A stretch of DNA of 26,252 bases, taken from Nitrospinota bacterium (lineage in GTDB: Bacteria > JADFOP01). Location of the stretch: NCBI GenBank assembly GCA_022562795.1, contig JADFOP010000031.1:1-26252 (forward strand). The letters are read 5' to 3'. The translations under genes and the position numbers were made by a program. The notes under the pieces were generated by a model. It was not told where the DNA came from. It did not search any database and saw only the letters and a list, made by a program, of their open reading frames with translations. Positions within the stretch are counted from its first letter, which is position 1; the number at the start of each line of letters is the position of its first letter. Below are positions 1,584 through 22,237 of this stretch, piece by piece.

Positions 1584-2537
1584 CTACTTCGCTAACGAGG
1601 GTAGGACGCTATCGATAATCTTGATTACACCTGGGCCGATGACAATCAAAAAAGTGGCTGGCAGGATGAAGAGCACCAGTGGGAACGTCAGCTTGACGGT
1701 CGTCTTGGCCGCCTTCTCCTCCGCGGCCTGGCGCCGTCTGGTCCGAATTGTGTCGGCTGAGATTCGCAGGGCTTGGGCTATCGAGGTGCCAAACCTATCG
1801 GCCTGGATCAGGACTGTCGCCAGGCCGCGGAGGTCCTCGAGGCTGTTGCGCTCTCCAAGGTTCCCCAGAGCCTTCTGGTAAGGAATTCCGGTGTTCATCT
1901 CGAGCGAAACGAGAGCGAGTTCTTTAGCCAATTTCGGAGCGGTGTGTTCTATCTCCTCCCCCACCCGCTTGAGCGCCATATTGAGCCCCAGGCCGGCCTC
2001 GACGCATACAATGAGAAGGTCGAGGGCGTTCGGCAATGACTTGTTCAGGGCATCGTTGCGGCGATTCGTCACAATTCTTAACCACAGGTTGGGAGCATAG
2101 AGCCCCAGGGCCGTACCCCCTCCAACGGTGATGATTACGTTGAGGAGATTTTGAGCTCCCGCCAACGAGTAGGCCACCCCCAGACCTCCCAATAGTAGAG
2201 CCCCCGCGGCTTTCATACCAAAGAAGAACATCGGGGCCTTGGAGCTTCGGTAGCCGGCGTAAGAGAGTGTTTTCCTGAGGCCTGTGACCTTCTGCTGCTC
2301 TTTGGGCGCCGTTAACCGGCTCAGAGAGCTCATGGCCTTTTCCAATTGCTTTTCCATCTTCCCGTGTTTGCCCTGATCCTGTACCCCTATGCCCTGAAGT
2401 CTCTCCGAGACAACATCCGACGTAGTCTTCTTGAAGGCTTGACTTAGGAACACTCCCACGCCCCCAATGGCCAAGACGGCGACGGTCATCATGAGGTAAA
2501 AGAGGGTGTTCGGATCAGATGTAAAGAGGTCCATCAT
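1584..2537 (-). CDS. tadC: Tad pilus inner-membrane platform protein TadC
   Basis: The 317-residue product has an N-terminal membrane segment, a cytoplasmic stretch, two more hydrophobic segments around residues 105-150, and a type II secretion F (T2SSF) domain. The domain contains NALDLLIVCVEAGLGLNMAL, then LALVSLEMNTGIPYQKAL and RFGTSIAQALRISADTIRTR, with a final membrane helix near the end. TadB and TadC form the inner-membrane platform that couples the TadA motor to pilin polymerisation. The ATG follows AGGAGG at a seven-base distance, and that site overlaps the tadB stop codon. It is the last gene of the minus-strand Tad operon and meets the small lipoprotein gene tail to tail. Confidence 0.9.
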   Translation of the reverse strand: MMDLFTSDPNTLFYLMMTVAVLAIGGVGVFLSQAFKKTTSDVVSERLQGIGVQDQGKHGKMEKQLEKAMSSLSRLTAPKEQQKVTGLRKTLSYAGYRSSKAPMFFFGMKAAGALLLGGLGVAYSLAGAQNLLNVIITVGGGTALGLYAPNLWLRIVTNRRNDALNKSLPNALDLLIVCVEAGLGLNMALKRVGEEIEHTAPKLAKELALVSLEMNTGIPYQKALGNLGERNSLEDLRGLATVLIQADRFGTSIAQALRISADTIRTRRRQAAEEKAAKTTVKLTFPLVLFILPATFLIVIGPGVIKIIDSVLPSLAK

Positions 2538-2548
2538 GATACGGCCTC

Positions 2549-3517
2549 CTAGATATCAATTGAAACAATCTTCTTAATCAACAGGGCTCCGAGTATCACA
2601 AGCCCACCAGCGGTGTAAAGCATGATATTGCCGAGGGGGGTGGTAAAGAGCGGCTCCATGTAATTAGGGCTAAGGTAGTTGATAATAAAACCCATACCAA
2701 TTGGCAATAGTCCCAACAGCCAACCGCTCAAGCGTCCTTCACCCGTCAGGGCCTTGATATGGCCCCTGAGCTTGAAGCGCTCCCGAATTGTGTAGCTAAG
2801 TTTGTCCAAAACCTCGGTCAGATTGCTACCTACATCCCACTGGATGAGCACGCTGGTGACGAAGAGCTTCATGTCCATGTTGTCGCACCGGTGTAAGAGG
2901 TTCTACAGTGAGTCCTTCATGCTCACCCCCAACCGATTCTCCTCGTTGATTTTTCTAAATTCGGTGCTGATGGGAGCTGAAAACTCCTTGGCTACCACCT
3001 CGAAGGCCATTGAGAGAGCGAAACCCGTCCGCAGGCTGCGGACGATAGTGTCGAGCGCCTCGGGCAGCTGCTTCGTGAGCTTTGACATCCGGTGCCGCTT
3101 GGCCAATTTAAGGTACAACCAGGGCCCTATGATACCTGCGACAAGGCCCAGCAGAGCATAAAGAGGACTCTTGGTGACCACGAAAACCACCGAGGAGCAG
3201 CTCCAGGCGGCAATGACGACGAGGAGCAAGAAGCGGTCCAGCAACATCCTTGTGCCTGCCTGGTCGAGCAAGGTGTCAAGAGAATTGGAAAAGGGCAAAA
3301 GAGCAAGAAACTTGTGAACAGCAGGGTTTTTCGAAAAGACGTTGACCCAGAGGATGCCGCCGCCAGGCTTCTTTTCGGTGGCCCCGACCCGAATGGCCTG
3401 AAGGCTTTCTCTGATAGACTTTTCGGTCTTATCGGCCTTGCTGCGCATCTGTAGATAAATGGCCTCTCCGAGCAGCGCCACGGTAGCGAAGGCAAATAGG
3501 AAGAGAACGTTCTTCAT
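2549..3517 (-). pseudogene. tadB: Tad pilus platform protein TadB, interrupted by one in-frame amber codon
   Basis: Reading frame 3517 to 2549 gives one TadB-like protein of 322 residues except for a TAG at 2905-2903 (codon 205). Before it come two N-terminal membrane segments and a T2SSF start (LPEALDTIVRSLRTGFALSM, then NEENRLGVSMKDSL). After it, in the same frame, come NLLHRCDNMDMKLFVTSVLI, then ERFKLRGHIKAL and two membrane helices ending LLIKKIVSIDI. The family normally has Glu or a similar residue where the stop falls (pattern xAL-E-NLxxR), so a GAG-to-TAG or CAG-to-TAG change explains it. The ATG overlaps the tadA stop (TGATG). Restart at the ATG at 2878 is possible, but no good ribosome site precedes it. 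This could be a true pseudogene, a strain variant or a base-call error. Confidence 0.8.
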
Positions 3518-4878
3518 CAGGAACTTGAAACCTCTTTATGAACGGTGAAGGTGTTCTCGGGAAGATGCACCCCGAACGACTCCAGCCTGTCCATGCAGCG
3601 AGGGCGGATGCCCGTGGCCTGAAAGACCCCTACCACTGAACCGTTGTTATCCACCCCCAGTTGGCTAAAGATAAAGATATCCTGAGTTGTGAGGATATCC
3701 CCCTCCATCCCTGTAATCTCCGCGATGCGCGTCACTTTGCGCTTCCCGTCGGATAAGCGGTTCGCCTGGACGATGATGTCGAGGGCCGACCCTATCTGCT
3801 GACGGATAACCCTTTCGGCCAGGTCGAAGCCCGCCATAGTCACCATAGTCTCCAGCCGGGAAAGAGCGTCCCTGGTAGTGTTGGCGTGAATGGTGGTAAG
3901 GCTCCCATCGTGGCCGGTGTTCATGGCCTGGAGCATATCGAGGGCCTCCCCCGACCTGACCTCGCCTATAATTATACGGTCCGGCCGCATCCGAAGGGAG
4001 TTCCTCACCAGGTCGCGCTGAGTGACCTCGCCCTTGCCCTCGATGTTGGGAGGCCTCGTCTCAAGCCTCACGACATGCGGCTGCTGCAGCTGCAGCTCGG
4101 CGCTGTCCTCGATAGTGACGATGCGCTCGCCCTCGGGAATGGAGCCGGACAGGGCGTTAAGAAGAGTCGTCTTGCCGCTGCCCGTCCCGCCCGATATAAG
4201 TATGTTGAGCTTCGCCCGAACGCAACCGGCTAGAAAGGTCACCATCTCTTCCAAAATGCTATCGAACCGAACCAGGTCTTCAAACTTAAGCGGGTCGGTC
4301 CCAAACCGGCGAATGGAGAGAGTCGGCCCATCTATGGCCAGGGGCGGAATGATGGCATTGATACGGCTGCCGTCGGGAAGCCGGGCGTCCACCATCGGAG
4401 AGGACTCGTCGATACGACGCCCCACCGCCGAGACGATGCGGTTGATGATATTGAGCAGGTGCTCGTCGTTCTTAAACCGGACGTTGGTACGTTCGAGCAG
4501 GCCGTTGCGCTCGATCCAAACCGAATTGTAGTTGTTGACCAAGATGTCGCTGATGGTCGGATCGCTGAGGAGCGTCTCCAGGGGGCCGTAACCGAGGGCT
4601 TCGTTCAAAACCTCCCCGACGAGCCTCTCCCGCTCAATTTGGTTAAGCGGGACGTTCTCACCTTGGATTATCTGGGTAAGGGCCGAGCGGATTTCCCTCC
4701 TGATCTCCTCTTTGTCCAGGGCATGGAGGCTTACGAGATCGATGTTGTCGACGAGCTTCCAGTGAATCTCGCCCTTGAGCTTTTGATAGAGGTCGTCGCT
4801 CTCATGAGAGACTGGCTGGTCGTTATTCTCTCCCGCCGTGTCTTGAACCACTGACTGGCGAAGACGGCTCCTCAACAT
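3517..4878 (-). CDS. tadA: Tad pilus assembly ATPase TadA/CpaF
   Basis: This is a 453-residue secretion ATPase of the PulE/VirB11 superfamily that powers pilus polymerisation from the cytoplasmic face. Visible motifs: the N-terminal domain signature [20 protein letters not shown] (about 95-114), Walker [10 protein letters not shown] (230-238), Asp-box region ([10 protein letters not shown], 254-263), Walker B RIIIGEVR with Glu306 (301-308), and the His box TTIHANT with His331. Length matches CpaF proteins. The ATG is served by GGAGG inside the end of tadZ, with stop and start three bases apart. The 3' end overlaps the tadB start, so tadZ-tadA-tadB are translationally coupled. Confidence 0.95.
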
Positions 4879-4881
4879 GGG

Positions 4882-6057
4882 CTAACTCCCTCCTCTCTTC
4901 TTCAAGAAGCCTAAGAGACCCGAGCTCTCTTCTACCTCCGGCTTTACCTGCGTTAGAGCGGCGCACAGTGACGCAATCTCTTGGGTTAGTTTCGCCTTCG
5001 GGTAGGCTTCCTGTAGGAGCCTGCCGGTGTTGATGGCCTCCATCGTCTCCTGCTCCATATTACAGAGCGTAGCGGCGATGGGCCAATTCAAGGTCTTCTT
5101 GATATTCTTGACCGAAAAAACCTTCGCCTTTTTTGCGAACCGGTTCAAGACCACCTTGATCTTGGCTCTGTCATATCCAAGCTGTTCGAGGAGCTCGAGG
5201 CAGCGCTTGGTGTTTTTGAGGCCCGGCACCGTCTGAAGCGTAACGAGGACAATGGTGTCGGCGGAGTCCATGGCGGCCAGGAAAATGTCGTCAATGGCTT
5301 TTAGGCAGTCAACGACTATAAAGTCGAAGTGGCTGCGCAGGCTTTGAAGAACACGGGTGACGTGCTCGCCCGTCACCTCCTCGGCTCCCTCGTAGGACCT
5401 GGGAGTCCCCAGGACGAATAGGCCAGAGGCGTGTCTGGCCAGGGACGAATCGAGAAGCTCCCCGTCGATCCGGCTTATGTTCTGGATGAAATCTGTAACT
5501 GTAAAGTTGGCCTCCAGATTCAGAAAATAGGAGACGTCTCCCTTGTAGAGGTCCAAATCGAAGAGGATGCTTCTCTGCTTTGGACTCCTGGCTAAATAGC
5601 CGGCCAGGTTAGTCGCCATAGTGGTGGTGCCGCAGCCCCCCAGCAGGCTGAATACGCTGATGACCTTGCCCCCCTTGTCCCTGTTCTCCTGCGCCTTGCA
5701 TATCGATCGGATCGTACGCTCAACGACCTCCTTGTCTTCTGGCAAAACGAAGAAGTCACGAACTCCGAGCCGCACCGCCTTAAGGATGAGGTCGGGGCTT
5801 TTCTCCTTGCTAAGAGCGAATACATGCATCTCCGCATGCTCTACCTTCAACTGTTCGATGATGGCCAAGGCCTTGTCGGGGTCCTGGCTCAAATCGACGA
5901 AGAGAACGGCAGGTTTTTTGTCCGTGACCAACATGTAGCCCGATTGGTAGTCGGCAGCGTTGCCCACGACCTTAATCGCGGACTCCACGGACTTTCCCAT
6001 CTCCTCCCTAATTGCAGCATCGGCTGAAATGATGACGCAACCTTCTTGGCTCACCAT
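4882..6057 (-). CDS. cpaE: Tad pilus localisation ATPase-like protein TadZ/CpaE
   Basis: The 391-residue product has two domains. Residues 1-120 resemble a response-regulator receiver fold (VLFVDLSQDPDKALAIIEQL, then AVRLGVRDFFVLPEDKE). Residues 131-375 are a ParA/MinD-type domain with P-loop-like LLGGCGTTTMATNLA (about 138-152), switch-like ILFDLDLYKGD and Walker B-like FIVVDCLKA. The P-loop lacks both the signature lysine and the usual GKT/GKS; Thr occupies that place, as in a number of CpaE/TadZ proteins. TadZ marks the pole or site where the Tad machine assembles. It lies between cpaB and tadA in the usual Tad order. The ribosome site is weak (AAAGAGAG region). Confidence 0.9.
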   Translation of the reverse strand: MVSQEGCVIISADAAIREEMGKSVESAIKVVGNAADYQSGYMLVTDKKPAVLFVDLSQDPDKALAIIEQLKVEHAEMHVFALSKEKSPDLILKAVRLGVRDFFVLPEDKEVVERTIRSICKAQENRDKGGKVISVFSLLGGCGTTTMATNLAGYLARSPKQRSILFDLDLYKGDVSYFLNLEANFTVTDFIQNISRIDGELLDSSLARHASGLFVLGTPRSYEGAEEVTGEHVTRVLQSLRSHFDFIVVDCLKAIDDIFLAAMDSADTIVLVTLQTVPGLKNTKRCLELLEQLGYDRAKIKVVLNRFAKKAKVFSVKNIKKTLNWPIAATLCNMEQETMEAINTGRLLQEAYPKAKLTQEIASLCAALTQVKPEVEESSGLLGFLKKRGGS

Positions 6058-6076
6058 CGTATCTCTCTTTCTATCT

Positions 6077-6916
6077 CTAGAAGTGTTCTAATCCACGCGT
6101 AGAGCCTCTAATCAATTCAACAGTCACCGGCGGAGGCAATGAAGGGGCTGATGCTGGCTCAACTTTGGGCTTTGGCTTAGGCGGCGTCCAGCCGATGAGG
6201 CGGACAGGAGTCGAGCCTTTTGTATTGACCGGAGATTGATCGAGCGTGTTGCGCATAGCCAGCTGAATGTCGTTGCGGCTCGCCAACGCGAGCTTTTCAG
6301 CATCGGCAGGACCCACCAAGAGGGTTACGGCGCTCACGCGCTTGGGCTTGCCATTCTCACGGGTGATCTCTTGACCGACGGCAAGCACAGGCACACGCTG
6401 AAGAACCGTTTTGGTAATAACACCCTCGCCCTTTATTGGCTCCATGGTCACGATAACATCCACGAGGTCGCCTGGCTTGATGAAGCCCGCCACGCCGATG
6501 ATCTCGTTAACCCGGACGGCCACGGCCCGTTGACCCTTGGGGATTATCGCCGCCAGTCCCGTCCCTCCGCCTTTCGGAATCAGGTGACCTTCCAAGATGG
6601 GCTCGCCGGCGAGAATCCTTCGCGCCGCCGCCCGTCCCACCACTTTCTTGGAGTCCTGGAAGGCACCCTTAAGGAGGGCCTTCTTCGGCCAAGGAGCAGT
6701 TTTCACATCACTAGTGGTGACGGTCATACCCGGTGCAATTTCGCGCTCGGCGACCGCCAAGGTGGTGAAGCCCTCGCGGGCCAGCTTATCCCTGAGAGCG
6801 GCCGACATTTGACTCTCCCGCAGATTCATGTAGCGGGTCATCAAAAAGATGGTCAGAAAGCCGGCTGCAACGGCCCCTACGAGTACGAGGACTCGAAGGT
6901 TTATAAAGCGTCCCAT
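6077..6916 (-). CDS. cpaB: Tad pilus assembly protein CpaB/RcpC
   Basis: The 279-residue product has an N-terminal membrane anchor (about residues 8-27), a SAF domain (about 51-112) and the CpaB/RcpC region with the family signature GVAGFIKPGDLVDVIVTM. After this comes TVLQRVPVLAVGQEI, and a proline-rich tail closes the protein. CpaB/RcpC is a periplasmic, membrane-anchored protein that associates with the secretin CpaC and may bind peptidoglycan through its SAF domain. A strong ribosome site (GGAGGAGGAGG) directly precedes the ATG. It lies 24 bases after cpaA and 19 before cpaE, on the same strand. Confidence 0.92.
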   Translation of the reverse strand: MGRFINLRVLVLVGAVAAGFLTIFLMTRYMNLRESQMSAALRDKLAREGFTTLAVAEREIAPGMTVTTSDVKTAPWPKKALLKGAFQDSKKVVGRAAARRILAGEPILEGHLIPKGGGTGLAAIIPKGQRAVAVRVNEIIGVAGFIKPGDLVDVIVTMEPIKGEGVITKTVLQRVPVLAVGQEITRENGKPKRVSAVTLLVGPADAEKLALASRNDIQLAMRNTLDQSPVNTKGSTPVRLIGWTPPKPKPKVEPASAPSLPPPVTVELIRGSTRGLEHF

Positions 6917-6940
6917 GACCTCCTCCTCCCTTCGGTAAAC

Positions 6941-7450
6941 TTAAAGTGGAGAGCCCCAAATAACAAAGCCCAGCGTGCCAGCGGCAATTGCTAGGCTGTA
7001 GGGCATGTGCGGTTTATCTCGGGAAGCTAGCGGGTAACGCCCCCGAAAAGTTATGAAGCAGACCAGGTCCTCGTAGATGGTCTTCATGAAGTTGGCGCCC
7101 TTTCCACCCGAGGCTACTATCATCCCCAGAGCTAAGACACCTCCCGCCAGTCCGCTATAAACCGTGGCGATGAGGATGTTCTTGGGGCCGAGCCATGCCC
7201 CCAGGCCCGCCAGCAGTTTCACGTCGCCTCCGCCCATCCCTCCGAGCATGTATGGGACGAGGAGAACCCCTAAGCCAACGGAGAGGCCAAGGGCGCTGGA
7301 CTTCAAACCAGGAAGTCCAGTAGTGGCCAGGTGGAAGACAAGACCGCCCACGGCTGCGGGCACGGTAAGGACATTGGGAATCTTCCGTGCCCAAAGGTCC
7401 GTCCCCACTGCGATGGCGAGAATTATGAGGATGACGATATTTGTACTCAT
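6941..7450 (-). CDS. cpaA: Tad prepilin peptidase TadV/CpaA (A24 family)
   Basis: The 169-residue polytopic membrane protein matches the short A24 peptidases of Tad loci, which lack the N-terminal methylase domain of PilD. The two catalytic aspartates are visible: Asp18 in AVGTDLWARKIPN and Asp76 in the GxGD-type motif GGMGGGDVKLL. It should cut the leader from the Flp pilin encoded just upstream. The ATG has only a poor ribosome site (AAGG directly next to it), which with the hairpin in the flp-cpaA gap may keep its level well below that of the pilin. Confidence 0.92.
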   Translation of the reverse strand: MSTNIVILIILAIAVGTDLWARKIPNVLTVPAAVGGLVFHLATTGLPGLKSSALGLSVGLGVLLVPYMLGGMGGGDVKLLAGLGAWLGPKNILIATVYSGLAGGVLALGMIVASGGKGANFMKTIYEDLVCFITFRGRYPLASRDKPHMPYSLAIAAGTLGFVIWGSPL

Positions 7451-7481
7451 CCTTGCTTCGAAGGCTCCATCAAAAGATTTC

Positions 7482-7522
7482 AGGCAAGGCCCACAGCGAC
7501 GGGGACCAAAAGCCGCTTGCCT
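7482..7522 (-). terminator. Possible attenuating hairpin between flp and cpaA
   Basis: AGGCAAG (7482-7488) pairs with CTTGCCT (7516-7522), a perfect 7-bp stem with a 27-base loop. Read on the minus strand, the stem is followed by TGAAATCTTTTG, a modestly T-rich stretch. The loop is long and the T-run is broken, so full termination is unlikely. Partial termination after an abundant pilin transcript would make sense. Confidence 0.25.
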
Positions 7523-7556
7523 TTCCCCGAGCGCTGCAGGCCGAAAAGAACCTCGT

Positions 7557-7742
7557 TTAGTTCGATGACGGAATCGTCGCGCTGAGCGTGGTGTTCACGC
7601 CGCCGAACACGCCGTTCAACGTAGTACCGAGGGTCTGAACGGTCAGAATGATGGCAGCCGCAATGAGGGCTACCAAGAGGCCGTACTCAACCGCCGAGGC
7701 CCCATCTTCGTCCTGCATGAACATCTTGAGGTGCTTTATCAT
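7557..7742 (-). CDS. flp: Flp-type major pilin
   Basis: This is a 61-residue prepilin. The short leader MIKHLKMFMQDEDG ends in glycine, followed by ASAVEYGLL, the Flp signature with Glu at +5 and Tyr at +6 of the mature protein. A hydrophobic helix rich in Ala, Ile and Leu follows, then a short tail. The processed pilin would be 47 residues, normal for Flp. The ATG at 7742 is chosen because GGGAGGAAGG lies about six bases upstream and because the leader has the right length; a longer frame upstream has no support. It is the first gene of the minus-strand Tad operon and lies about 120 bases downstream of a sigma-54 promoter. Confidence 0.95.
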   Translation of the reverse strand: MIKHLKMFMQDEDGASAVEYGLLVALIAAAIILTVQTLGTTLNGVFGGVNTTLSATIPSSN

Positions 7743-7860
7743 GGTGTCCTTCCTCCCAAAGCTTATTGTGCGATCTAACTTCTGGAAGGGTCGGAATTTC
7801 TGAGCACCCCCAAGGCACCCATTCCCTTCCACTTTGATCGGCTATTCAGCTATAGAGTTT

Positions 7861-15365: not shown

Positions 15366-15578
15366 AGAGTCCCCCTAGCGTGGCGCCTGGCCACGATGCC
15401 GAAAGGTTTTAGATTGTTAAGGATTCGGCCGCCCGTGCCGCCCACCGCGGCGGGCCGCGTCGCTCATCATACGAAGGAGGGGGCGGGCAGGTCAAATGGA
15501 ATGGGGATGGAGAGGGAGATCGGCTTTCACGATAGCCAGAGAAATCCAAAGCGCACGGCCCGGAAGCGTTTCCGCGCG

Positions 15579-15674
15579 GGTTGCGATTTTTCGGCTTTTT
15601 CCGCGTTTTTCCGGGAATTTCCGAATTAAAGCTCCGGTTGCGATTTTTCGGCTTTTTCCGGGAATTTCCGAATT
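15579..15674 (+). repeat. Two-copy tandem repeat upstream of the Memo gene
   Basis: Copy 1 (15579-15627) and copy 2 (15636-15674) both begin GGTTGCGATTTTTCGGCTTT and end GGGAATTTCCGAATT. Copy 1 carries ten extra bases, an internal duplication of the TTTTTCCG motif. The period is 57 bases. The T-rich runs contrast with the GC-rich surroundings. The -35 element of the candidate Memo promoter begins at the end of copy 2. Confidence 0.8.
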
Positions 15675-15701
15675 GACCCTTCTGGTGCGTTCCGATACGA
15701 T
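15673..15701 (+). promoter_or_regulatory. Candidate sigma-70-type promoter of the Memo-ATPase operon
   Basis: TTGACC (15673-15678), 17 bases, TACGAT (15696-15701). The start would be near 15708, some 40 bases before the TTG start codon at 15747. Confidence 0.4.
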
Positions 15702-15746
15702 GGGAGCCGTTTGACCGACCTTTATCAACAATAAGGAGCGGCCCCA

Positions 15747-16997
15747 TTGGAGAATCCCCGCCTCAGGCCTCTTGAGGCCTTTCCGGTGGAGCACGAGCGC
15801 CGGCAGATGATCTGCTTGCGCGACCCCCACGGCTACCTCGAAGAGCCCTTCTACGTCGCGGCCGAACTCGGAAGCATCCTTCAGCACCTCGACGGGACCA
15901 ACTCGCTGCGCGATATCCAGGCCGCCCACATGCGACAGCACGGCGAGCTACTGCACACCGAGCAGCTCGAGGCCTTTGTGCGCGAGCTCGACCAGGCGCT
16001 TCTGCTGGAGAGCGAACACTTCCGGTCCTTCGTTGCCGAGACTCAAGCTGCCTTCAAGCGCCTGAAGGCCAGGCCCCCGGCCCTTGCGGGCAGCTCATAT
16101 CCTGAGGAAGCCCAAGAGCTCAACGGCCTGCTGGCCGACTTCTTCACGGCGCCGGGCGGCCCAGGCGCCCTTACCACCGACGGCGGGCCGCCCGATGGAC
16201 GCCTTGCAGCGATCGTGGCCCCGCACATCGACTACGCCCGCGGCGGGCCCTGCTACGCCCACGCTTACAAGGCCCTCAGGGAATCTTGCCAGGCACGTTG
16301 CTTTGTCATTCTCGGAACCTGTCACCGGCCGACGAAGTATCCGTTCGTCTTGACCCGCAAGGCCTTCCAGACGCCCCTCGGCGTGGCGCCGACCGACGGG
16401 GGCTTTATCGACAGCCTCCAGGCGCGGGTGGACTACGATCTCTTCGCCGACGAGTTCGCCCACCGCTCCGAGCATACCATCGAGTTCCAGGTCCTGTTTC
16501 TCCAATACATATTGGCCGGACGCCAGCCTTTTCGGATCGTCCCGATTCTGGTGGGCTCTTTCCACGAGGCCGTCTTAAACGGTTCCTCTCCCATGACCGT
16601 GGAGCCAATCGGGCAGTTCATCGAGGCATTGCGCGAGACACTCGATGAGGAGGCCTCTGGGGGGATCTGCGTTGTGGTCAGCGCCGACCTCGCTCACGTC
16701 GGGCCTCAATTCGGAGACCCAGCGCCGTTGGGCCAGAGCGATTGGGACCGTGTACGACAGGACGATCTGGCATTAATGGACCACGCCGTGGCGGCCGATT
16801 CCGAGGGCTTCTTCCAAGAGATCGTCTCCCAAGGCGACCGCAACCGCATATGCGGCTTCCCACCTATTTACACGATGCTCGCGGCCCTGGACGACGGTGT
16901 GGAAGGGGGGCTGCTCAACTACGGGCAGTGGCCCAGCGCGTACGGAACCGTCACCTTCGCTAGCCTCGCCTTCTCAAGGCCCGAGGTGGAGGGCTGA
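15747..16997 (+). CDS. Memo-family protein (AmmeMemoRadiSam system protein B) with an N-terminal extra domain
   Basis: This is a 416-residue protein. The start is TTG, chosen because AAGGAG lies eight bases upstream and no ATG fits. Residues 112-410 are a Memo domain: LAGSSYP (113-119), IVAPHIDYARGG (156-167) with His160, VILGTCHRP (187-195) with His193, SEHTIEFQVLFLQ (241-253), SADLAHVGPQFGD (312-324) with His317, and CGFPPIY (369-375) with Cys369. The three His and the Cys match the metal-site positions of Memo. Residues 1-105 form an extra domain (LEEPFYVAAELGSILQHLDG, then SLRDIQAAHMRQHG) that looks helical and may be PqqD- or winged-helix-like. Biochemical role in bacteria is unknown. 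The stop is six bases from the next ATG, and GGAGGG for that gene lies inside its 3' end. Confidence 0.85.
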   Translation: MENPRLRPLEAFPVEHERRQMICLRDPHGYLEEPFYVAAELGSILQHLDGTNSLRDIQAAHMRQHGELLHTEQLEAFVRELDQALLLESEHFRSFVAETQAAFKRLKARPPALAGSSYPEEAQELNGLLADFFTAPGGPGALTTDGGPPDGRLAAIVAPHIDYARGGPCYAHAYKALRESCQARCFVILGTCHRPTKYPFVLTRKAFQTPLGVAPTDGGFIDSLQARVDYDLFADEFAHRSEHTIEFQVLFLQYILAGRQPFRIVPILVGSFHEAVLNGSSPMTVEPIGQFIEALRETLDEEASGGICVVVSADLAHVGPQFGDPAPLGQSDWDRVRQDDLALMDHAVAADSEGFFQEIVSQGDRNRICGFPPIYTMLAALDDGVEGGLLNYGQWPSAYGTVTFASLAFSRPEVEG

Positions 16998-17003
16998 GAC
17001 CCT

Positions 17004-18362
17004 ATGGACGACGACATTCAACACGACCCTTCTCCTGAAATGCCCGACCAACCCTCCGACACCCCACCCCCGTCTCAGAGCCAGCCCTCCTTTTTAGCAA
17101 TGCCAACCACCATTGAGGAAACAGGCCTGAATGAGGGCTTCCTCCTGGACCTACTCCCCAAAGTTCTCTACACGGTAGGCTCCTTGAGCGGATACCAGCT
17201 CTGCGATCGCCTTAAGCTCGCTCCGACCGTGGTCAACGCTCTCCTTGTTAAACTTAAGAAGGAGAAGCTCATCATGGAGTCGCCGGGGGCGGGCTCGCAT
17301 CCGTTGGAGTTCATCAACACTTTGACCTCCGAGGGAGCGCAACGGGTTCGGGAATCAATGGGGACAAGCATGTATGCCGGTCCGTGCCCCGTGCCCCTGG
17401 AGGTCTATTCCGAGGCCGTCAAGGCTCAATCTATAAAAGGGCGGATGAAGTTGGTGGATAGGGCCCGTTTGGAAGAGGGATTGGCCCACCTCGTTGTGGA
17501 CGATGAGTTAATAGAGCGCATAGGTCCGGCGATTAATACCTTTCGGTCCCTCTTCATTTTCGGTCCCGCGGGCGGAGGGAAGACGGTTATTGCCAAAGCC
17601 ATCGGGAACATGATGTCCGAGGAGTACTACCTCCCTCACGCCATTGCCGTTGACGGTCAGGTCATCAAGCTCTTCGACCCGGTCAACCACATCTCCCTCG
17701 ACCCGCCAGGGGTGGACGGCGCCGAGGCTCCTGGTGGGGATCGGCCGGCGGCGGACCCTCGGTGGCTCAGGTGCCAACGCCCCGTGGTGATTACCGGGGG
17801 TGAGCTGACCCTCGAGATGCTTGACCTAGCCTTCAATCCGCTCGTCAAGTACTACGAGGCGCCCCTCCAGCTCAAGGCCAACGGCGGGATGTTCCTGGTG
17901 GACGACTTCGGTCGCCAGCTGGTCTCTCCCCGGGACCTGCTCAACCGCTGGATAATCCCAATGGAGGAGCGACAGGACTACCTCACCCTCCACACGGGCC
18001 AAAAGTTCCCCGTGCCATTTGATATCCTAACTATCTTTGGGACCAACATCGAGCCGCGCGACTTGGTGGACGAAGCCTTCTTGCGCCGAATCCCGTTCAA
18101 GGTGGAAGTCAAAGACCCCACGCCCGACCAGTACCATTCCATCTTCGACCGGGTCTGCGAGGAGCGTGAATTAGAGTACGACAAAGATGTTGTGGATGGG
18201 TTGCTGGAGCGTTACTACCGTCCTCAGGACAAGCCCCTTCGGGCATGCCATCCGAGGGATTTGGTGGAGATCATCATCGCGCGCGCAGACTTCCTGAAGG
18301 AATCACCTAGGGTGACTGAGCAGACCTTGGCGGAGGCCTGGAAGACCTACTTCGTAGATTAA
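17004..18362 (+). CDS. AAA-type ATPase with N-terminal winged-helix-like domain
   Basis: The 452-residue product starts with a Pro/Ser-rich disordered stretch (1-30). A helical domain like a winged helix follows (about 45-115; YQLCDRLKLAPTVVNALLVK, then LTSEGAQRVRE), and then an AAA core. Walker A is FGPAGGGKT (186-194), Walker B-like MFLVDDFGRQ (296-305; Asp-Asp rather than Asp-Glu), sensor-1-like ILTIFGTNIEP (341-351), and DEAFLRRIPFK (357-367) is the probable arginine-finger region. From memory, relatives with this DDFGRQ and NRWIIPMEER wording are sometimes annotated as ATPases linked to Flp pilus assembly; I cannot verify this. It is cotranscribed with the Memo gene and converges on fbpC. 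The target of the ATPase is unknown. Confidence 0.7.
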   Translation: MDDDIQHDPSPEMPDQPSDTPPPSQSQPSFLAMPTTIEETGLNEGFLLDLLPKVLYTVGSLSGYQLCDRLKLAPTVVNALLVKLKKEKLIMESPGAGSHPLEFINTLTSEGAQRVRESMGTSMYAGPCPVPLEVYSEAVKAQSIKGRMKLVDRARLEEGLAHLVVDDELIERIGPAINTFRSLFIFGPAGGGKTVIAKAIGNMMSEEYYLPHAIAVDGQVIKLFDPVNHISLDPPGVDGAEAPGGDRPAADPRWLRCQRPVVITGGELTLEMLDLAFNPLVKYYEAPLQLKANGGMFLVDDFGRQLVSPRDLLNRWIIPMEERQDYLTLHTGQKFPVPFDILTIFGTNIEPRDLVDEAFLRRIPFKVEVKDPTPDQYHSIFDRVCEERELEYDKDVVDGLLERYYRPQDKPLRACHPRDLVEIIIARADFLKESPRVTEQTLAEAWKTYFVD

Positions 18363-18459: not shown

Positions 18460-19491
18460 TCACTCCTCCAGCGCGGAGGGCGTCTGGACGATGGTCAAGC
18501 CCACCTCGTCCCCCACCTGGTGAGGCCATATCCCGTTCGCAAGGCAGGAGCAGTTGACACGAAGACCATCGACCTCCACTAAGTAGACCTCTCCCTCCTG
18601 GCCCAAGAACATCCGATGGATGAGGCGGCCCCGGATCGTTCCGAATGGGTCGATTTGTAGGTCCTCGGGCCGCAAAGCTAGAGTTACCGGTCCATCGGGC
18701 CTGAACATGGGGAAGGTGCCGAGGGCGGTCTCCACCTGCCCGTCCTTGACCTGGCCCTCCAAGATTAGAGCTTTTCCTAGGAAGGAGGCGACGAACCGGC
18801 TGCGGGGCCGTCGGTAGACGACTTCCGGGCGGCCGACCTGTTCGAGCCGCCCATCCTTCATGACGGCAAGCCGGTCGGCGACCTTCATGGCCTCGGCGCG
18901 GTCGTGGGTGATGTAGAGGGTCGCCACGCCGAGCTGGCGCTGGAGCACCTTGAGCTCGATGATCATCTCTTTTTTGAGCCGGGCCTCGATGGCGCCCATC
19001 GGCTCGTCCAAGAGCAGGATTGAAGGCTGTGGGGCGAGGGCCCTGGCTAGAGCCACCCGCTGTTGCTGACCGCCTGAGAGCTCGTGAGGGTACCGTTTTG
19101 CAAATGAGCCAAGCTCCACCTTCTCAATTATCGCTTGGACGCGCTGGGTCTTGGTCTCGGAGTCGAGCCTCCGGAGGCCGAACGCGATGTTCTCCTCGAC
19201 GGTCAGGTGAGGGAAGAGGGCCAAGTCCTGAAAGACTATCCCGACCCCGCGTCGCTCCGGCGGCACGAAGGTTTTTCCATCGGCTAGGACCTTACCCTCC
19301 ACCTCTACCGTCCCGGCACAAGGCACCTCAAATCCAGCGATGAGGCGTAACGTGGTGGTTTTCCCGCATCCGCTGGGGCCCACGAGGGCCACGATCTCCC
19401 CCTTCTCCACGCTGAGGGTGAGGCCGTCCACTGCGGGAGGGTCGTTCGGGGCGTATCGTTTTGTCAGCCCTTCGAGGCGAAGGAGGCTCAT
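18460..19491 (-). CDS. fbpC: Ferric-iron ABC transporter, ATP-binding subunit
   Basis: The 343-residue product has an ABC ATPase domain followed by a C-terminal TOBE-like regulatory domain (from about 240; VTLALRPEDLQIDPFGT). Motifs: Walker A GPSGCGKTT (38-46), Q-loop VFQDLALFP, signature LSGGQQQRVALARAL (138-152), Walker B ILLLDEP (158-164), switch His196 in ITHDRAEAM. The D-loop, usually SALD, reads GAIE. ERRGVGIVFQDLALFPHLTV is typical of the iron, putrescine and sulphate importer branch. It follows the permease gene by 10 bases with GGGGG before the ATG. Iron as substrate is inferred from FbpA and the Fur boxes. Confidence 0.9.
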   Translation of the reverse strand: MSLLRLEGLTKRYAPNDPPAVDGLTLSVEKGEIVALVGPSGCGKTTTLRLIAGFEVPCAGTVEVEGKVLADGKTFVPPERRGVGIVFQDLALFPHLTVEENIAFGLRRLDSETKTQRVQAIIEKVELGSFAKRYPHELSGGQQQRVALARALAPQPSILLLDEPMGAIEARLKKEMIIELKVLQRQLGVATLYITHDRAEAMKVADRLAVMKDGRLEQVGRPEVVYRRPRSRFVASFLGKALILEGQVKDGQVETALGTFPMFRPDGPVTLALRPEDLQIDPFGTIRGRLIHRMFLGQEGEVYLVEVDGLRVNCSCLANGIWPHQVGDEVGLTIVQTPSALEE

Positions 19492-19501
19492 CTATTCCCC
19501 C

Positions 19502-21157
19502 TTAAGAACTCCAGGCGATGTCCCTGGGGCGCCACAGCGATAGGAGAAGCCACGGCACCGCCACGAGGCCCACCAATGTCAAGGCCAGAGCGGCTGCGCG
19601 GGGCTCCGGTCCGATGTCCATCGTGTATATCCAAATTCGTACAGGCAGCGTGTCGAAACCGGGAGGACGGACGATGAGGGTCGCCGCCAGCTCCCGCATG
19701 GAGAGGATGAATACCAAGACCCATCCCCCCAAAAGGCCCGGCCGGATAAGCGGGAGGATAACCTCCCAGAAGGTTCTAAGCGGCCCCCGTCCGAAACCCC
19801 GGGCCGCCTCCTCGAGAGAGAGGGGAAGCTGCTCGAGCGCCGCCTTGACCGATTGAAATGCCGGGGTGGTGAAGAGGATGACGTATCCTAAGGCCACAAC
19901 CAGCGGCGAAGCATAGACCCAAGGCAGGGCGGTGTGAAAGAACCCCACCATGCCCAGGCCTAAGGCGGTGCCGGGGATCGCGTAGCCGACCTGAAAGAGC
20001 GTGGAGGCCCCCCAGCCCCGGCGTCGGCGCTCCTGAAACCACCCGACGGCTAGGGCGAGGAGCAGTGCCAAACTCGCCCCGAGGGCGGCCATCCAGAGGG
20101 AGTTCAGTATCACTCTCCATTCGAAGCTCAGCAAGGAGACGATCTCGCTCGCGCCGATTCGGGATGCCTGGAGAGCCAGAACCAGCAAGGGAAGAAAGAA
20201 GGAGCAGCTAAGTACCAGAGCCACGAAGCAGTAAGCGATACTGCGAGCCCCCCTCCCAAGGGGAATGCGCTCTGGGGGCCTGCTTCTGGCGGTGACTTGG
20301 GTGTACCTGGCCCGACCCAGAAATTTAAGCTGAACAAGTAGGATACCAACGGTCATGACGACCAACACCACCGAGAGCCCCGCCGGAATCGTCCAATCCA
20401 TCGTCCCCTGAACAAAGTCGTAAATAACAGATGTAAGCGTTCGGACCCGCAGCAGAGAGACCACCCCGAAATCGGCCCAGCTGTACAGAAAGACCATGAG
20501 ACTACCGGCGAGGAGCGCGGGGCGGAGCAGGGGAAGGATGACGCGGCGCGCGACCTCCCATCGGCCCATCCCGGCGGCCTGGGCCACCTCCTCTAAGGCG
20601 GGGTTGGCTCGATCCAGACCCGCTCGCACAAGCAGGTAGATATACGGGTAGGTGAAGAGGCTCAAGACCCAAGCGGCTCCCCAGAGGCTGTAGATGTTAA
20701 ACACTTGGAGTTTAGAGGGCTGCTGGCCCGCCAATCTGGCCACCAAGTGGTTGACGAAGCCCGTCGGAGCCAGGAGGATTTGATAGACCAGGGCCCCAAT
20801 ATAAGGGGGGATCGCTAAAGGAAGGGGTGCGAGCCAGTGGATTAGCCCTCTTCCGGGCAGATCGGTCCTGGCAGTGATCCAAGCCATCGGAACCGCCCAC
20901 ACCAGGGCCAACCCTGTGGTGATGACGGCCAAAACGCAGACCCGAGCAACGATCCGGTGAAGGCCGAGCTCACCCATCCTGGTAAAGAATTCCCCAAGCC
21001 CTAGGCCGAGACCCTTCCAGGCCAGAAACGCCAGGGGCCCCAAGATGGTGGTCGCCACGACTCCCGTCAGAGCGAAGCCCGAGAGGTGCCTGAGGCGGTC
21101 CCCCTCCAGAAATCCTTGGAGTCGGAGGGCCGTCCTAAGGGATAAGGAGCGCTCCAA
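19502..21157 (-). CDS. fbpB: Ferric-iron ABC transporter, fused double permease
   Basis: The 551-residue membrane protein has about 12 hydrophobic helices, made of two BPD_transp_1 halves. Each half carries the EAA loop that docks the ATPase: LEEVAQAAGMGRWEVARRVI (188-207) and LEEAARGFGRGPLRTFWEVI (about 448-467). This duplicated form is the rule for FbpB/SfuB/AfuB iron permeases. The start is TTG at 21157, preceded by GGAGAAG; the gene overlaps the end of fbpA by 23 bases, so translation is probably coupled. The alternative, a later start, would remove the N-terminal cytoplasmic stretch only. Confidence 0.92.
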   Translation of the reverse strand: MERSLSLRTALRLQGFLEGDRLRHLSGFALTGVVATTILGPLAFLAWKGLGLGLGEFFTRMGELGLHRIVARVCVLAVITTGLALVWAVPMAWITARTDLPGRGLIHWLAPLPLAIPPYIGALVYQILLAPTGFVNHLVARLAGQQPSKLQVFNIYSLWGAAWVLSLFTYPYIYLLVRAGLDRANPALEEVAQAAGMGRWEVARRVILPLLRPALLAGSLMVFLYSWADFGVVSLLRVRTLTSVIYDFVQGTMDWTIPAGLSVVLVVMTVGILLVQLKFLGRARYTQVTARSRPPERIPLGRGARSIAYCFVALVLSCSFFLPLLVLALQASRIGASEIVSLLSFEWRVILNSLWMAALGASLALLLALAVGWFQERRRRGWGASTLFQVGYAIPGTALGLGMVGFFHTALPWVYASPLVVALGYVILFTTPAFQSVKAALEQLPLSLEEAARGFGRGPLRTFWEVILPLIRPGLLGGWVLVFILSMRELAATLIVRPPGFDTLPVRIWIYTMDIGPEPRAAALALTLVGLVAVPWLLLSLWRPRDIAWSS

Positions 21158-22178
21158 ATCGCTTCTCCACTATGGGTTCGAAATCGGCCATCCGCGCCTG
21201 GGTCACGGGGGCCCGCTTGAACTCTCCGAGGCCCTTCACCCCTTTTTCCTCGCCGACGGGCCGCACGCCGTTCAGGAGAGGGATCTCATACTTTCCTTTC
21301 ACGAGCAGCAGGTTCCCTCTGGGCTGGAGTAGGAAGTCTATGAACCGCGTGGCCTCGTTCATGTGAGCGGCGCCCCGGATGATGGCCGCGGTGATGGTCG
21401 CCATCGGAGTACCCATCTGTCCCGCCCCCTGGTCGGGGTAGAGAATTCCTATGGGGCTTTCTGGGTCTTCATCAAGATGGATCATGTAGTAGTAGTGGTT
21501 GGTAATCCCCAATGGGTACTCCCCCCTGGCCACGGCACGGCGCACTTCGGTGTTGTTTTTCAATACCTTGAGGCCGTTGGCCTTCAAGGCGCGTACGTAC
21601 TTCGTGGTAAAGTCCTCGCCTTTCAGGGCCATGATGGCCGCCAACCAGCTCACTGTGGTCCGCTCTGCCATGGAGGCCAAAGCCACTTTCCCTTTCCACT
21701 TCGGGTCGGTCAGCTCGAAGAAGGATGTGGGGAGGTCGATGCCCTTCAACAAGTCCTTGTTATACAGAATCACCCGGACCCGGCCGGTGACTCCCACCCA
21801 GGAGCCGTCGGAGGCCCTGAACTCGGAGGGAACCGCCCCGAGGTGCGGGGAATCATAGAGGGCCAGGAGCCCTTTGCGCCTGAGCAGTTCTGCAATTCCG
21901 GCTGCTGTTCCTACGAAAACATCACCCAGTGGATCGCCCTGCTCGATTTCGATCCGGCGGGCCAGCTCTCCAGCTTTCCCCGTCAGCAGTGTGACCGTTA
22001 TCCCTGTCTCATCTTGAAATGCCTGAATGGTGGGGCGAATTAAATTCTCTTTGCGAGCGGAGTAAACCACTAGGTCCTTTTTCGCCTGAGCCATCTTCGG
22101 GGCGAGCCCCACCCCCGCCAGTGCGGCGAAACACAACGCAATCGCTCCCGCCACAACGCGCAGTACTCTCACATTCAT
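21135..22178 (-). CDS. fbpA: Ferric-iron ABC transporter, periplasmic binding protein
   Basis: The 347-residue product has a signal peptide (about 1-32, ending MAQAKK) and then the type II periplasmic-binding fold seen in FbpA: LVVYSARKENLIRPTIQAFQ (36-55), FVGTAAGIAELLR (88-100), NYYYM-type motif in ITNHYYYMIHL (225-235). The tyrosines at 229-231 are where FbpA proteins hold ferric iron. The His and Glu ligands known from Haemophilus FbpA are not in their places (YSARKE, FVGTAAG), so this belongs to a tyrosine-dominated subclass. The ATG at 22178 is chosen because AAAGGAG lies eight bases upstream and the signal peptide then begins properly; the longer frame from 22211 adds a charged stretch. 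Two Fur-box-like palindromes lie upstream. Confidence 0.9.
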   Translation of the reverse strand: MNVRVLRVVAGAIALCFAALAGVGLAPKMAQAKKDLVVYSARKENLIRPTIQAFQDETGITVTLLTGKAGELARRIEIEQGDPLGDVFVGTAAGIAELLRRKGLLALYDSPHLGAVPSEFRASDGSWVGVTGRVRVILYNKDLLKGIDLPTSFFELTDPKWKGKVALASMAERTTVSWLAAIMALKGEDFTTKYVRALKANGLKVLKNNTEVRRAVARGEYPLGITNHYYYMIHLDEDPESPIGILYPDQGAGQMGTPMATITAAIIRGAAHMNEATRFIDFLLQPRGNLLLVKGKYEIPLLNGVRPVGEEKGVKGLGEFKRAPVTQARMADFEPIVEKRFGALLIP

Positions 22179-22237
22179 AAATGCGCTCCTTTCGTCCCTG
22201 CTCGGCCTCATGGCCTGTGAAGCGGAGTGAGCTTGTT

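Follow-up and report, generated by a model that had tools for sequence, protein, structure and literature searches.

We analyzed a 26,252-base window of DNA, which is an entire contig (C31) of a 2.15-Mb draft genome of a Nitrospinota bacterium. For comparison, we used a sample of 386 genomes, in which this organism is represented by one relative of the same genus (G001, 85% complete) and one of the same class. At the center of the locus, a gene for a Memo-family protein is followed on the same strand, after a gap of six bases, by a gene for an AAA+ ATPase (Table 1). The initial annotation had proposed these two genes as an undescribed two-gene unit, possibly connected to pilus assembly, and our analysis confirmed both open reading frames and the gap between them. 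A Tad/Flp pilus locus lies on the same contig, approximately 9.2 kb from the ATPase gene. On the other side, an ABC transporter operon (18460-22211, reverse strand), which encodes a solute-binding protein (SBP_bac_6) and a TOBE_2 ATPase, converges on the AAA+ ATPase gene. The gap before the Memo gene contains two overlapping direct repeats of 46 and 40 nt (15574-15689); related sequence occurs at 13 other sites in the genome, so these repeats belong to a dispersed family.

Table 1. Features of the Memo-ATPase locus and the Tad/Flp locus, numbered from the first base of the window.
Feature	Position	Strand	Basis or remark
Tad/Flp locus	1584-7832	-	Pfam, translations, comparison with same-genus genome
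TadC	1584-2537	-	Tad locus
TadB, in-frame stop	2549-3517	-	Tad locus
CpaF	3517-4878	-	Tad locus
CpaE	4882-6057	-	Tad locus
RcpC/CpaB	6077-6916	-	Tad locus
Prepilin peptidase (CpaA)	6941-7450	-	Tad locus
Flp-type pilin	7557-7832	-	Tad locus
AAGGAG, likely ribosome-binding site for the TTG at 15747	15733-15738	+	Sequence; inference
Memo gene, predicted RRE + Memo fusion	15747-16997	+	TTG start, 416 aa
Predicted RRE/PqqD-like domain of Memo protein, residues ~1-105	15747-16061	+	AF2, VIA-align, hhalign
Memo domain, LigB-type fold	16062-16994	+	Pfam PF01875, MEMO1 7kq8 match, conservation in 60 relatives
Metal residue H160	16224-16226	+	Equivalent of MEMO1 H49
Metal residue H193	16323-16325	+	Equivalent of MEMO1 H81
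Metal residue C369	16851-16853	+	Equivalent of MEMO1 C244
AAA+ ATPase gene	17004-18362	+	ATG start, 452 aa; Tad-associated family
Winged-helix-like N-domain of ATPase, residues ~44-118	17133-17357	+	AF2 model
Walker A GPAGGGKT, residues 187-194	17562-17585	+	Alignment; most relatives GPPGNGKT
Walker B MFLVDDFG, residues 296-303	17889-17912	+	Alignment

Residues 111 to 394 of the Memo protein match Pfam PF01875 (E = 6.7e-43, 147.3 bits against a cut-off of 27). An AlphaFold2 (AF2) model of the protein, calculated with 60 relatives, has a pLDDT of 96 and a pTM of 0.93, and its residues 105 to 412 superimpose on iron-bound MEMO1 (7kq8) with a Z-score of 32.3 and an rmsd of 2.4 over 275 residues at 26% identity. 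The same region matches LigB-type extradiol dioxygenases with Z-scores of 16 to 18. In MEMO1, the metal residues are H49, H81, and C244 (PMC11081632); we identified the counterparts of the two histidines by pairwise alignment and that of the cysteine by a conserved CG motif in the alignment. The two histidines are invariant and the cysteine is at least 90% conserved among the 60 relatives, which agrees with the earlier proposal that the His-His-Cys metal site is intact. The ion in this site is probably iron (or copper). Some Memo matches contain TGA or TAG stops, for which we considered selenocysteine; in the five fetched loci where such a stop was seen, we rejected this candidate because the stop is the natural C-terminal end.

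The protein shares its fold and metal residues with MEMO1 and the Memo family but differs from them in having an extra N-terminal domain. Its Memo domain also passes the cut-off of TIGR04336 (AmmeMemoRadiSam system protein B). Unlike in the AmmeMemoRadiSam system, neither of the usual partners, AMMECR1 and radical SAM, is encoded near the Memo-ATPase pair, as the initial annotation had noted. The AMMECR1 gene of this genome is on contig C14, and a second, canonical Memo gene is on contig C4. This canonical Memo (287 aa, positions 1918-2781 of locus L261) adjoins a glutamyl-tRNA synthetase-like gene and has a histidyl-tRNA synthetase-like gene nearby, and we recognized no AMMECR1 or radical SAM gene among the open reading frames listed around it.

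The extra N-terminal domain comprises about 100 to 105 residues, in line with what had been read from the sequence. A direct Pfam scan of this domain in the window gave no match, and the Pfam PqqD model (PF05402) directly matches only 2 of 60 members, so the fold was revealed only by profile and structure comparison. In the AF2 model, three strands are followed by three helices between residues 10 and 83 (E10-16, E19-25, E35-38, H39-46, H54-65, H71-83; pLDDT 93-98). Structural comparison of residues 1 to 96 with VIA-align returned TbiB1 (Z = 9.1), TigE (Z = 8.5), and PqqD (Z = 7.9), with ThcOx, TruD, and MccB as further matches. We then compared a profile of 59 N-domains with 25 PqqD-family sequences from other genomes using hhalign, which gave a probability of 97.6, an E-value of 4.7e-12, and a score of 65, against a highest score of 16.3 in 50 column-shuffled controls. 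Because a Z-score near 8 alone could reflect a common arrangement, we base the assignment on the profile test and the list of matches together. By these comparisons, the N-domain is a predicted RRE/PqqD-type peptide-recognition fold, and we refer to the protein as RRE-Memo.

The N-domain has the fold and element order of known RRE/PqqD domains (TbiB1 5v1u, PqqD 5sxy, TigE 8vpo) and, by analogy with them, probably binds a short peptide segment. It differs from them in being fused to Memo with no conserved RiPP enzyme or precursor gene alongside, and in that the Memo fusions have a strongly conserved N-terminal PxLR motif. Fusions of the same two domains, RRE and PF01875, are named in one sentence of the RRE-Finder update, which calls them "unprecedented" in RiPPs (PMC12710340); the architecture is therefore not new, and what our data add is a measurement of the solo gene context and the lack of conserved neighbors.

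We detected the fusion of this N-domain with Memo in 66 of the 386 sampled genomes, or about one in six. Among neighbors of at least 60 aa around 60 fetched Memo-fusion loci, none is conserved except common regulator-type and TPR proteins. In several pairs of genomes from the same family, the Memo gene alone aligns at the locus, and the region upstream of the Memo gene (15377-15672) gave no blastn match between the two genomes of the same genus. Overall, RRE-Memo looks like a solo gene.

The ATPase gene encodes the winged-helix-like N-domain proposed for it, which the AF2 model resolves into helices and strands H44-58, H63-70, H74-86, E90-93, E104-107, and H109-118. Conserved motifs in 27 sequences include G187-T194, D300/D301, sensor 1 N348, and an Arg-finger pair, R361/R362. 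No Pfam model reaches its cut-off on this protein, and the best NCBIfam match is IteA (19.7 bits against a cut-off of 510), placing the ATPase in an AAA+ family that has no Pfam or NCBIfam model of its own. The closest structural match is Pyrococcus furiosus Q8U0N8 (8p49, Z = 17.6), and other matches are of the Lon, MCM, and NtrC types and NorQ (Z about 13.5 to 15.4, with NorQ at about 14). We considered the label "MoxR family" and dropped it because Z-scores hardly separate the Lon, NtrC, and NorQ types; we claim no subfamily. The protein shares the AAA+ fold and all catalytic motifs with ATPases of the Lon, MoxR/NorQ, and NtrC types and with Q8U0N8, but it differs from them in its own winged-helix N-domain, its Tad association, and the fact that no curated family fits it.

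Homologues of the ATPase were detected in 20 of the 386 genomes and the Tad marker RcpC/CpaB in 85. RcpC is present in 18 of the 20 ATPase genomes, compared to 4.4 expected (Fisher p = 4e-11, not corrected for lineage). Of the remaining two genomes, G333 has CpaF beside the ATPase, and G139, without RcpC and without a clear CpaF, is the only exception. In 23 further ATPase genomes, RcpC was found in 19 at E ≤ 0.001 and in 16 over the cut-off; five of these genomes were preselected for adjacent tad genes, and the count without those five is 15 of 18. The ATPase gene is located inside or next to tad genes at 7 of 26 loci in one set and 7 of 80 in another, for a total of at least 14. These linked loci occur in Acidobacteriota, Chloroflexota, Gemmatimonadota, and other families, and they show at least three layouts (ATPase-CpaF; TadB-TadC-ATPase; prepilin peptidase-ATPase-RcpC). 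Most ATPase genes in Chloroflexota are not adjacent to tad genes. In the mostly Chloroflexota set, a glycerophosphodiester-phosphodiesterase-like gene lies just downstream of the ATPase at 46 of 80 loci, in most cases at a distance from tad genes.

These data bear out the suggested link between the ATPase and Tad/Flp pili. The papers searched did not attach to this family the Flp-pilus label that the initial annotation gave for relatives of the ATPase. In a Vibrio Tad operon, VP2426, a "Predicted ATPase with chaperone activity," lies between the prepilin peptidase and RcpC (PMC7859628), as the ATPase does in our locus L135; we liken the two by label and position. The genome of the same genus has tad genes and no detected ATPase, and the ATPase is therefore not universal in Tad systems. 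We infer that it is an optional accessory of Tad/Flp pili. Within the Tad locus of the window, the tadB frame is interrupted by a stop some 204 codons in, leaving open reading frames of 204 and 109 aa. The match in the same-genus genome (60% identity) is uninterrupted, and the stop may be either a real nonsense mutation or an assembly error.

The proposed two-gene unit did not hold up. We found no ATPase near the Memo fusion at any of the 60 fetched loci, and no Memo near the ATPase at any of 106 loci (0 of 26 and 0 of 80), a few of which have a contig end close to the ATPase. The 60 loci include the syntenic locus of the same genus, where an enoyl-CoA hydratase gene and the Memo gene align with the window at 83% and 79% nucleotide identity, respectively. 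Synteny stops at window position 16969, and other genes come next; Memo thus keeps its location there, but the ATPase is missing. About 8 kb of these other genes separate Memo from the ABC transporter operon, which is accordingly not adjacent to Memo in that genome. Considering all 386 genomes, the Memo fusion and the ATPase occur together in five, compared to 3.4 expected (p = 0.24). The suggested pilus connection of the pair stands for the ATPase alone: 18 of the 66 Memo-fusion genomes have Tad, compared to 14.5 expected, and we rejected a Memo-Tad link because this enrichment is not significant (p = 0.17).

We consider it most likely, with a probability of roughly 0.85, that two unrelated conserved genes are adjacent here by chance, one for an RRE-Memo enzyme that stands alone and the other for an AAA+ ATPase that is an accessory of Tad pili, although the counts behind this reading come from genome samples that are not phylogenetically independent. 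The six-base spacing suggests co-transcription in this genome, which counts against chance adjacency, and the distance of the ATPase from the tad genes could argue for one larger neighborhood. Should the pair work as a real unit in this lineage, Memo might be remodeled or loaded by the ATPase, in the manner of MoxR-type metal-insertion helpers. In keeping with this idea, the genes are closely spaced on one strand, Memo has a metal site, the structural matches of the ATPase include NorQ, and MoxR-like AAA+ proteins, NorQ among them, carry out metal insertion (PMC13036017). However, the pair occurs in no other genome surveyed, the same-genus locus has no ATPase, and only 4 of the 65 other fusion genomes have the ATPase anywhere, which makes such a unit very improbable. 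Even less credence attaches to a single pilus-related locus of Memo, ATPase, and Tad, in which Memo would help to assemble the pilus or modify the pilin. The tad genes on the same contig and the strong Tad association of the ATPase fit this idea, but the Memo-fusion genomes are not significantly enriched in Tad, and in the same-genus genome Memo is on contig C111, no closer than 22 kb to its ends, with tad on contig C399.

Each gene considered separately also has an alternative, and we regard both of these as improbable. RRE-Memo could be a RiPP-tailoring enzyme whose nearby precursor peptide gene was overlooked by ORF calling, as its canonical predicted RRE fold would allow, and RRE fusions are often found together with RiPP enzymes (PMC12710340). 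This proposal is countered by the 60 loci without a conserved neighbor of at least 60 aa (common regulator-type proteins aside), by the same-family pairs in which only the Memo gene is conserved, and by the unmatched upstream region. The association of the ATPase with Tad could likewise be lineage bias only, given that both are common in Chloroflexota, Acidobacteriota, and Myxococcota, that the ATPase loci retrieved by name come mostly from Chloroflexota, and that the genome sample is not corrected for phylogeny; linkage to tad genes at 14 or more loci, in several phyla and different layouts, argues otherwise.

In the chance-neighbor reading, the RRE domain of the solo RRE-Memo would bind a short peptide segment, and the Memo domain, with iron or copper in its His-His-Cys site, would act on what the RRE domain delivers. 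The ATPase with its winged-helix N-domain would be an optional Tad/Flp accessory that most likely forms a ring and remodels or chaperones a pilus protein. The two genes are possibly co-transcribed in this genome, and nothing points to a shared function. A more specific version of this reading is tentative: RRE-Memo may be a widespread solo enzyme in which the RRE domain brings a peptide or protein tail, the product of a gene at another site in the genome, to the Memo iron site, and the ATPase may be an undescribed accessory motor of some Tad pili.

Memo proteins are found in organisms ranging from archaea to humans. No dioxygenase activity of MEMO1 was detected with the substrates tried (PMC11081632), and a common bacterial Memo with a predicted peptide-recognition domain suggests a kind of substrate to seek. 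If the specific version is true, RRE-delivered peptides or protein tails would be the first defined substrate class of the Memo family. As for the ATPase, what had been an annotation label is now an association of Tad pili with an unnamed family of AAA+ proteins, and this association can be tested. RRE-Memo is likely to be a metal protein directed by peptides, and the ATPase belongs to an uncurated AAA+ family of putative Tad accessories; each merits attention separately.
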